Shown piece by piece: positions 16,618 to 21,916 of a stretch of 33,375 bases of DNA (the first letter of the stretch is position 1; each line of letters starts with the position of its first letter). The stretch is from a virus: positions 1-33,375 of IMG/VR virus record IMGVR_UViG_3300035701_000162; one strand, written 5' to 3'. Under the pieces are notes generated by a model. That model did no database searches. It was not told where the DNA came from and worked only from the letters and a program-made list of their open reading frames with translations. The position numbers were made by a program, and so were the translations under genes.

Positions 16618-16799
16618 GCGACGAGGAAACTAATAGTGAAATTGCACGCATTGTAACTGAAGCAGACGAGATGTTTCATGAGCTAGTGAAAATAATTGTA
16701 ACTGAAGCAGACGAGCTGTTTCATGAGCTAGTGAAAACAAATGTGGAAGTCTTCCTTAAGAGCCTTAGAACGATCAACGCAGCACATAAGGAGAAGTGA
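16614..16799 (+). CDS. Small helical protein with internal 15-residue duplication
   Basis: 61 residues. IVTEADEMFHELVKI is followed at once by IVTEADELFHELVKT, encoded by a nearly identical 45-bp tandem repeat. The rest is a charged helix. Start overlaps the stop of the RHH-like gene (ATGA), so both are likely translated together. Possibly a partner of the regulator; no family recognised. Confidence 0.5.
   Translation: MSDEETNSEIARIVTEADEMFHELVKIIVTEADELFHELVKTNVEVFLKSLRTINAAHKEK
16650..16739 (+). repeat. 45-bp tandem duplication
   Basis: Two adjacent 45-base units (starting 16650 and 16695), each beginning ATTGTAACTGAAGCAGACGA, differ at only a few bases. The in-frame unit adds 15 residues to the encoded protein. 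The near identity suggests a recent duplication. Confidence 0.85.
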
Positions 16800-19631: not shown

Positions 19632-19668
19632 AAGGGGAGGTATACCAATGGGTGCCTCCCCTATTTTC
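19632..19668 (+). terminator. Intrinsic terminator after the recombination genes
   Basis: AGGGGAGG (19633-19640) pairs with CCTCCCCT (19655-19662); inner ACC/GGT pairs extend the stem. ATTTT follows and AAA precedes. It ends the early operon before the parA promoter. Confidence 0.75.
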
Positions 19669-19743: not shown

Positions 19744-20556
19744 ATGAAAACAAAAAAAATTGCTGTTATGTGCCACAAGGGCGGCGTCGGTAAAACTGTC
19801 ACTGTAGCTGGATTAGCGGATGCAATTTCTTTTAATGACCCAACCAAAAAAATTCTCATCCTAGACGGCGATGAGCAAAACTGTCAGCGCACTATCTTTG
19901 GAGTAAAGTTAACAGACACACGAGGCGGTCTATCCTCCTTACTGGATGGTACTCTTTCGTTATCTGACGCGCGTGTGAAGGTTAGGCCAAATATTGACCT
20001 AGTTCTGTCTGGTGGTAGAGAGCTGCGCGAATTCGAGTCCCGCAACTCGTGTGTTGATAATGCTGAAATGCTTCTACGCACTAATATTGGCGACGTATCG
20101 GAGTACGACTACATTTTAATGGACTGTCCTCCAGCTATTTCTCTGGTGAGCGCTAACGCAATTACTTTTTGTGATTATATTCTTATCCCATGCCTTCCTG
20201 AGTTGCTCGCGTTCGTTGGCTGTAAGCAGACCAACAATTTTATCGAACAAATGGGCAAACACTACGCTGAGGCACGTTATCCAGTAGCGAAGGTGTTGGG
20301 TGTTGTGTTGACACAATATTGCGCTACTCAGAACCTAGACCAGAGTATTTTTAGTGATTTAGAGGACTTAGCAGAAAAACGACTAATCGGGAAATGCTTC
20401 TCCCCTATTCCTAAAGACGTAAAAGTAAAAACAGCGCAAGTAAAAAGGAAGCTTCTGTCAGAAGGGTTCGCAAAATGCAAGGCAGCCGCCGCGTACAGAT
20501 TATTAGCTAAAGAACTACAGGATGAAATTGAAAAAATCGTGAACGTTACTGGCTAA
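19744..20556 (+). CDS. parA: ParA-type partition ATPase
   Basis: 270 residues from ATG 19744 (AAAGGATTACAT upstream); the longer frame from 19699 would start inside the promoter. The deviant Walker A motif KGGVGKT lies at residues 12-18, ILILDGDEQN at about 37-46 and YDYILMDCPP at about 121-130, all typical of ParA/Soj/MinD ATPases. These bind DNA as ATP dimers and segregate plasmids together with a ParB-type protein and a centromere. No N-terminal DNA-binding extension is present (type Ib-like), and no ParB is obvious; the RHH-like gene at 16450 is a candidate partner only by analogy. It is followed by rep, a plasmid maintenance arrangement. Confidence 0.85.
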   Translation: MKTKKIAVMCHKGGVGKTVTVAGLADAISFNDPTKKILILDGDEQNCQRTIFGVKLTDTRGGLSSLLDGTLSLSDARVKVRPNIDLVLSGGRELREFESRNSCVDNAEMLLRTNIGDVSEYDYILMDCPPAISLVSANAITFCDYILIPCLPELLAFVGCKQTNNFIEQMGKHYAEARYPVAKVLGVVLTQYCATQNLDQSIFSDLEDLAEKRLIGKCFSPIPKDVKVKTAQVKRKLLSEGFAKCKAAAAYRLLAKELQDEIEKIVNVTG

Positions 20557-20584: not shown

Positions 20585-21916
20585 TTGTTGACTACTAGCG
20601 ATGCGGTAAAAAAACCAAAAAAAAAGGACCACGGCCTATCCCTGCTAGATGAGTTTCTAGAGGACGATAACCATTTTCAGAATGGGAAATTTGATAAGCC
20701 CATAGCTTTAAAAAACAATGAAAGGCGAATCCTGGAGGTTAAACAGCTAGATGACGTAGCTGAAAATCCTAAAGGGAATCAAAAGGAGATCAAAAGGGAA
20801 TCAGGAAATGAGAATCCCTACTTAGATGCCCCAAACACGAAAGGGAATCAAAAGGAGATCAACCAGAAATTACTGGATAAAACCCCTCCGACTATTAGTG
20901 GTAAATCAAAAGGGAATCAAAAGGAGATCAAAAGGGAATCAAAAGGGAATCAAAATCATTTAAAGGGAATCAAAAGGGAATCAGAAAGGGAATCAGAAAG
21001 GGAATCAAAAGGGAATCAAAAGGAGATCAAAAGGGAATCAAAAGGAGATCAAATTTTTCTGTTTAATAGACTGTCATTTTTACAGGCTAGAATAATGATA
21101 TTTTTGTTTTATGAGTGCCAAAATTCATTTGAAAGGAGAACAGGGGAATTAACTAACTTGAAAATTGCAAGTGTTGTAAATTCCACAGGAAAAACCGTTA
21201 AGAATGAAATTAAAAGACTGCGCGATAGGTGTTTCCTAACAACAAATTTCAACAAGGTTGGCCGAAATGGCTGGAGGTGCTTTGATCTGCCAGAAAGCGT
21301 GTTCGCAAGTTTGTCGCTTCTTAATACCCAAGGACAATTAAACACTGAAAAATGGTCGAAAAGGGAATCAGAAAGGGAATCAGAAAGGGAATCAAACTTT
21401 CCCTGTAGTAGTAGTAGTAAAGAATTAAATACTACTACAGAGAAACAAAAAGCAGAGAAAATACTGAAGCAGGAAGCTCAAGAACTGATTCTCAATAACT
21501 ACCCTTGGGAGCGGTTTAGTGTTTTAAACTTTACACGGAAGCATGCTGCTCAAATTTTGAGTGCTGGTCACTTCGATGCTGGAGAGGTTTTCCAATTTGC
21601 GTCTGACTGCTTCGACGACTGGAAAAACAAACGCGGCAATCTGCGCAACCCCCACCAAGTGTTGCTAGCCAATCTCAGTCGCGGTAAACCATATCACTGG
21701 CTAGGGACCGCGACCGTACCTACACCGCGCTCCACTAACACACCACCTGTCGATACCTCCCCAGAGGACTTCCTCATGGATGACGCTTTCCAGGTGTGGC
21801 TTACAGTTCTGCCCCTTGAGGAGAGGGCGCGCATCGTCGGTAATGAGCCTGATTTTATGCACCCAGTGACCCTTCGTTTGCATTTCTCTAACTTTGTGTT
21901 TACGAAAGACCGTTAA
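20585..21916 (+). CDS. Plasmid/phage replication initiator-like protein
   Basis: 443 residues from TTG 20585 (TTG 20588 also possible), with AAAAGGAGGAA upstream. The N-terminal third is a low-complexity, charged stretch (KGNQKEIKRES repeated; RESERESERES) whose codons are the iterons. Residues about 158-245 form a likely winged-helix domain (RTGELTNLKIASVVNSTGKT then VKNEIKRLRDRCFL). A second short RESERES repeat follows, then a C-terminal helical domain (about 300-443). Having the initiator's binding sites inside its own gene is the layout of lambda O. The Rep function is inferred from iterons, winged helix and adjacency to parA; no named Rep family is certain. Confidence 0.65.
   Translation: MLTTSDAVKKPKKKDHGLSLLDEFLEDDNHFQNGKFDKPIALKNNERRILEVKQLDDVAENPKGNQKEIKRESGNENPYLDAPNTKGNQKEINQKLLDKTPPTISGKSKGNQKEIKRESKGNQNHLKGIKRESERESERESKGNQKEIKRESKGDQIFLFNRLSFLQARIMIFLFYECQNSFERRTGELTNLKIASVVNSTGKTVKNEIKRLRDRCFLTTNFNKVGRNGWRCFDLPESVFASLSLLNTQGQLNTEKWSKRESERESERESNFPCSSSSKELNTTTEKQKAEKILKQEAQELILNNYPWERFSVLNFTRKHAAQILSAGHFDAGEVFQFASDCFDDWKNKRGNLRNPHQVLLANLSRGKPYHWLGTATVPTPRSTNTPPVDTSPEDFLMDDAFQVWLTVLPLEERARIVGNEPDFMHPVTLRLHFSNFVFTKDR
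20771..21050 (+). repeat. Helically phased iteron array, cluster 1 (candidate origin)
   Basis: Twelve copies of GGGAATC (from 20774, 20796, 20843, 20912, 20934, 20945, 20965, 20976, 20988, 21000, 21011, 21033) and five of GGAGATC (20785, 20854, 20923, 21022, 21044), embedded in AAAA spacers. Most are exactly 11 bases apart, a few 12. Three 11-base units make 33 bases (11 codons), so successive units are read in different frames. Confidence 0.85.
21360..21438 (+). repeat. Iteron cluster 2 with adjacent 9-bp hairpin
   Basis: GGGAATC occurs at 21363, 21375 and 21387 with 12-base spacing. It is followed by GTAGTAGTA (21411-21419) and TACTACTAC (21430-21438), a perfect inverted repeat around an AT-rich 10-base centre. 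The iterons-plus-hairpin layout resembles a replication origin. Confidence 0.7.

Follow-up and report, generated by a model that had tools for sequence, protein, structure and literature searches.

Lambda O is a winged-helix initiator whose own gene contains both the iterons and the AT-rich opening region, and whose C-terminal part recruits the replisome. Intragenic origins in initiator genes are already known from lambda O, from RepA_N and from RepC. Several such cases with iterons have been listed, including the RepA_N plasmids pSK1, pSK41 and pLS32, in which the iteron origin lies within the rep gene, and the repABC RepC of R. etli p42d has a ParA-type gene upstream, its origin in the initiator gene and an AT-rich region (PMC3155836). 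Here we describe a locus in a 33,375-bp virus record (the window, meaning the whole stretch of DNA that was analysed) with terminase, SU10-type portal and capsid genes (Pfam, PHROG). Judging from sequence and predicted structure, the ORF at 20585-21916 is probably a replication initiator that carries its origin inside its own coding sequence. The features are as follows.

19744-20556, + strand: ParA-type ATPase gene (Pfam AAA_31, 1.2e-28; PHROG ParA-like, 9e-38), directly upstream of the initiator-like ORF
20585-21916, + strand: initiator-like ORF from the ORF list, 443 aa, TTG start, Shine-Dalgarno AAAGGAGG before the start
20771-21051, + strand: N-terminal iteron array of 17 exact 11-mers that occupy all three frames (synonymous-shuffle test)
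21056-21331, + strand: winged-helix domain, predicted iteron binder (AlphaFold2; winged-helix fold matches)
21132-21142, + strand: degenerate iteron AAAGGAGAACA with one mismatch, inside the winged-helix coding part
21360-21394, + strand: C-side iteron array, three exact 11-mers at 12-bp spacing
21398-21445, + strand: TAG/CTA-armed inverted repeat around an AT-rich loop, candidate opening element (shuffle and folding scores)
21485-21910, + strand: C-terminal helical domain, putative replisome recruiter (family profile alignment)

The ORF has no family match in Pfam, PHROG or NCBIfam. Like lambda O, the window has its iterons inside an initiator-like gene together with a winged helix. In contrast to the lambda iterons, which are four in number, longer and palindromic, the window has 20 short asymmetric units that flank the domain, and a ParA gene lies upstream. 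Phage_rep_O (PF04492) does not match the window protein, and a Legionella relative reaches 19.4 bits against a cut-off of 28.7. Thus, where the preliminary description proposed an origin within its initiator gene as in lambda O, the origin anatomy (array, AT-rich inverted repeat and initiator-like gene) stands, whereas membership of the lambda O family is not supported. The RepA_N plasmids share an iteron array inside a rep-like gene, but the window family lives in other hosts and has ParA upstream, and the RepA_N Pfam model matches neither the window protein nor eight relatives at E up to 1. With repABC the locus shares the upstream ParA-type gene, the AT-rich region and the predicted origin in the initiator gene; however, repC lacks iterons and belongs to an operon with a separate ParB. 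The RepC profile matches nothing in the window or the relatives, and no ParB was found among the scanned window genes adjoining the module. Rep3_N (Rep_3, pPS10/RepE) is likewise absent from the window, the best relative scoring 18.2 bits against a cut-off of 22.4. In DnaD-type phage replisome organizers (e.g. L123), too, direct repeats and a TAG/CTA inverted repeat immediately precede the C-terminal domain. Unlike L123, in which DnaB_2 (PF07261) is recognised at 3.6e-17 and a ParA motif was not seen, the window has ParA and lacks DnaB_2, a profile that matches none of nine proteins at E up to 1. Finally, ParA partition systems combine ParA, a DNA-binding protein and a short direct-repeat array as the window does, but in comparison with those that use a small binding partner, the window has its array inside the binding-protein gene, and an extra C-terminal domain and an inverted repeat.

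The ORF contains 20 exact 11-mers (15 AAAGGGAATCA and five AAAGGAGATCA), all on the + strand and all within 20771-21394, and no exact copy lies elsewhere in the 33,375 bp on either strand. They form two arrays rather than one, 17 units preceding and three succeeding the winged-helix coding stretch, and Tandem Repeats Finder detected both independently. The start-to-start gaps are 11, 11, 47, 11, 58, 11, 11, 11, 20, 11, 12, 12, 11, 11, 11 and 11 bp in the 17-unit array and 12 and 12 bp in the 3-unit array. This bears out the preliminary description, which had reported about 20 copies inside the ORF, spaced 11 or sometimes 12 bases apart and read in three frames (KGN, QKE, IKRES). Relative to the ORF start, six copies fall in frame 0, nine in frame 1 and five in frame 2, and since all three frames are occupied, the encoded peptide runs KGNQKEIKRES and so on. 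The accompanying claim that the repeats are DNA elements and not a peptide repeat holds as well, given the three frames and an excess over synonymous shuffles: out-of-frame 7-mer repeat pairs number 136, whereas 200 synonymous-codon shuffles that preserve protein and codon usage average 9.3 and never exceed 38 (z=19.4). A peptide-repeat explanation is ruled out by these frame and shuffle tests. In viral contigs, the exact iteron pattern was found in 23 contigs with a single match in each and no arrays.

Profile searches place the ORF in a previously undescribed family of about 50 sequences, found on plasmids of Bdellovibrio, Legionella, Piscirickettsia, Cardinium and Bandiella and in one other phage. 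By tblastn, relatives were first seen on Legionella israelensis and Bdellovibrio HAGR004 plasmids, and later on many Piscirickettsia plasmids and in Cardinium and Bandiella; a profile search detected members in 27 of 143 Legionella-order genomes and in 3 of 247 from a desulfobacterial phylum. The window protein scores 1.8e-92 against the family profile, of which it is itself one of the ten building rows. ParA together with a member that has 11-bp repeats is also present in a second phage lineage (L110/L119, with terminase). Of the 51 members examined, 42 are immediately preceded by ParA. Two points thereby go beyond the preliminary description: the iteron and hairpin layout, as the searches indicate, is shared by a family widely spread among plasmids and phages, and the ParA gene directly upstream is, by gene order, part of the conserved unit. 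The window ParA is 47.8% identical to that of the Bdellovibrio plasmid pBdHAGR4, a likeness that hints at a Bdellovibrio-like host. Among desulfobacterial relatives (L052, L053, L059, L099, L100), some without ParA directly upstream, the repeats around the winged helix are 12-bp and in frame (e.g. MQSAMHS from ATGCAGTC units), and the hairpins have GATA or GA arms.

The relatives retain the architecture and the 11-bp period, while their unit sequences differ (AGTTCAAA, AGACAAAG, TTAGCCAG, GGAACAA, CGGAACACA, AGATAACA, AGGGTTCA and GGTTCAC). By our own reading of the consensus list, these units seem mostly to fit an AG(G/A)NNNCA-like theme. Over the N-terminal part of the coding sequence, identity between bases at lag 11 exceeds synonymous shuffles by a mean of 0.036 (t=7.9; 38 of 43 members positive) and self-identity at lag 22 is also in excess (t=6.0), with hardly any excess in the remaining gene. 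The 21 members with weak arrays, taken as a group, still show both (lag 11, t=4.3; lag 22, t=4.5); because the members are related, these t-values overstate independence. With a handmade alignment of the units from 21 members, partial Mantel tests, in which shared ancestry is only partly corrected for as it is in the t-tests, link the unit to the winged helix given the C-terminus (r=0.51, p=0.0002) but not to the C-terminus given the winged helix (r=0.13, p=0.15), and the recognition helix contributes a little on top of the remaining domain (r=0.17, p=0.008). The winged helix presumably reads the iteron unit. The equal period with other units, together with arrays in non-coding DNA, further backs a repeat conserved at the DNA level. 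On a Piscirickettsia plasmid (L039), 12 matching AACGGAACACAAA-type copies, many 11 bp apart, lie in non-coding DNA upstream of ParA, and a Legionella anisa plasmid has 17 TGAACYR copies in the same position, many as pairs 11 bp apart. Between ParA and a divergent HTH gene of L. anisa, about 0.4 kb of non-coding DNA is filled with the unit. Two plasmids of one Bdellovibrio strain, pBdHAGR5 (L068) and pBdHAGR4 (L069), have 7,265 bp in common at 99.7% and are 91% identical in DNA over the C-terminal half of the initiator, but differ in ParA (33%), in the winged helix and in the iterons, as expected if these parts set incompatibility.

The hairpin that the preliminary description saw adjoining the iterons is present at 21398-21445, with arms TTTCCCTGTAGTAGTA (21398-21413) and TACTACTACAGAGAAA (21430-21445). 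It has the highest inverted-repeat score of the ORF, 13, where 20 synonymous shuffles reach at most 9, and its DNA folding z-score is -4.3. Its position in the family separates the winged helix from the C-terminal domain. The best inverted repeat of the ORF lies 322-374 nt past the start of the winged helix in 18 of 38 members, and 17 of these 18, the window included, have simple-repeat arms (TAG, GATA or GA); the repeat exceeds all 20 synonymous shuffles in 11 members and was undetected at this position in about half of the 38 members scored. Three Legionella members without a linker inverted repeat carry a TAG-type one in non-coding DNA, beside the array and some 150 bp upstream of ParA. The linker serine codon is AGT in 52% of cases vs 19% elsewhere (Fisher 7e-12). 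Scanning viral contigs for the inverted-repeat pattern returned more family members and two other phage initiator-like genes, one with DnaB_2. However, a reversed-orientation control pattern was as frequent (31 vs 23) and also fell in initiator-like ORFs, so the pattern alone is not diagnostic. The TAG tracts fit the DnaA-trio consensus 5'-TAR, and 16 of 33 linkers contain TAR runs, against 0 of 93 other segments. We dropped the DnaA-trio reading because desulfobacterial members have GATA or GA arms and the control orientation is equally common, and kept the inverted repeat as the conserved element. DnaA boxes are not enriched: with one mismatch allowed, there are 28 where 28.65 are expected.

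The preliminary description also placed a winged-helix domain at the core of the protein, and the predicted structures support this. AlphaFold2 models both the window core and a Legionella relative confidently as a winged helix. In the window core, pLDDT is about 80-90 over most of residues 1-90, and in the relative the C-terminal part also reaches a pLDDT of about 80-90. The best solved match of the Legionella model is pPS10 RepA WH1 (1hkq; Z 9.9, 2.5 A over 96 residues), with other winged helices within about 1 Z; the fold is common, and the top matches include transcription regulators at similar Z. All fold-search matches are winged helices, the C-terminal domain being barely covered, and HMM searches match this domain to neither DnaB_2 nor any other family of replisome recruiters. 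Replication-protein names returned by Foldseek for viral models were not used as proof, given the large rmsd over two domains. The DNA under the 5' end of the winged-helix coding part is AT-rich (73% AT at 21065-21124).

We favor an initiator with an intragenic origin, given that the array adjoins an AT-rich inverted repeat, that the gene joins a winged helix to a C-terminal domain, and that the small plasmids have no other clear initiator. From these features we infer iteron binding, opening, recruitment and autonomous replication. The winged helix would bind the 11-bp iterons that flank its own coding stretch, with one monomer at every helical turn and all of them on a single DNA face. Binding would load strain on the AT-rich inverted repeat at 21398-21445 and lead to its opening, while the C-terminal domain would recruit the host replisome. 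The ORF and the upstream ParA would then constitute a maintenance module with which the phage persists or replicates as a plasmid-like element. None of the further pBdHAGR5 genes that were scanned is an established Pfam Rep; this plasmid does encode a borderline Replic_Relax protein (24.2 bits against a cut-off of 25.3), which counts against the initiator reading. In its favor, the repeats and inverted repeat also occur in the phage DnaD-type replisome organizer, and desulfobacterial relatives without ParA nearby keep both.

Because ParA belongs to the conserved unit, a centromere role is a real rival or an additional function. The ORF could be a ParB-like DNA-binding partner of ParA and the array an intragenic centromere, with replication left to another factor. 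ParA stands directly upstream in most members, the two small Bdellovibrio plasmids have no separate ParB annotated, and the non-coding arrays before ParA look like centromeres doubling as operators. ParA-activating tails are short and Lys-rich, and the N-terminus of the ORF is short, conserved and Lys-rich like them; at 20585-20770 it has an (L)SLLDEF-like motif common to the Bdellovibrio relatives and is a possible ParA-contacting tail. Winged-helix-only variants with iterons (L042, L063, L087-L093, L095, L156) stand mostly behind ParA, and those beside ParA, which lack the C-terminal domain and lie near another HTH gene that may be the initiator, favor a centromere-binding role for the iteron module. 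Nevertheless, a centromere leaves the inverted repeat and the C-terminal domain unexplained and the small plasmids without a clear initiator, and the ParA-less desulfobacterial members and the recurrence of the layout in the DnaD-type example argue against a pure partition reading, which we consider unlikely. The near-constant ParA neighbor and the winged-helix-only variants do suggest a contribution to partition. Within the initiator reading it is conceivable, and we propose it tentatively, that one protein and one intragenic array form both the origin complex and a partition complex grasped by ParA. If so, replication and segregation would be fused in a two-gene module, and ParA, winged helix and iterons would be swapped together, giving rise to new compatible plasmids with an unchanged replisome-recruiting half, a joint swap suggested by the pattern in pBdHAGR4 and pBdHAGR5.

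Far less probable is a role of the repeats as an auto-regulatory operator or mRNA element of the ParA-rep operon in place of an origin. Winged-helix proteins are frequent repressors of their own operons, arrays lie upstream of ParA in some relatives, and units like AAAGGAGATC resemble ribosome-binding sites. However, no unit lies upstream of ParA in the window, numerous copies deep in the second gene of an operon fit neither a promoter nor ribosome binding, and the relatives' units AGTTCAAA and AGACAAAG have no such likeness to ribosome-binding sites. That the repeats are a functionless, recently expanded microsatellite or peptide repeat is scarcely credible, for although arrays can arise by tandem slippage and some relatives (L041, L042) have in-frame 33-bp blocks, the copies occupy three frames, keep an 11-bp period across divergent units, stand in places 20-58 bp apart, recur in a second array beyond the winged-helix domain and in non-coding DNA, and co-vary in unit with the winged helix.

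The family and its anatomy appear to be new: neither the family, nor the double array around a winged helix, nor the link to ParA was found in profile libraries or in the openly searchable literature. The replicon family named here was missed by the annotation libraries searched. When the plasmids of Piscirickettsia salmonis LF-89 were studied in 2019, pPSLF89-3 was reported to carry neither an initiator nor iterons (PMC6963756); a family gene is present on it behind ParA, with more than 12 GGAACAA iterons. The family offers origin and incompatibility candidates for plasmids of hard-to-manipulate bacteria, and a natural series of matched winged-helix and iteron pairs in which to see how initiator specificity shifts while the site stays protein-coding.

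Short direct repeats adjoin a trinucleotide-armed inverted repeat (SSSS..TTTT or TTTT..SSSS) in other phage initiator-like genes as well (L108, 1431-2747, - strand; L123, 14058-14534, - strand; L126, L137 and L144), and such intragenic origins may be common among phages. Elsewhere in the window, a GC-rich, terminator-like hairpin (GGGGAGG...CCTCCCC, 19634-19663) separates the upstream gene from ParA, and a tandem repeat of 45 bp in 2.1 copies at 16650-16744 encodes a repeated TEADE(M/L)FHELVK peptide.
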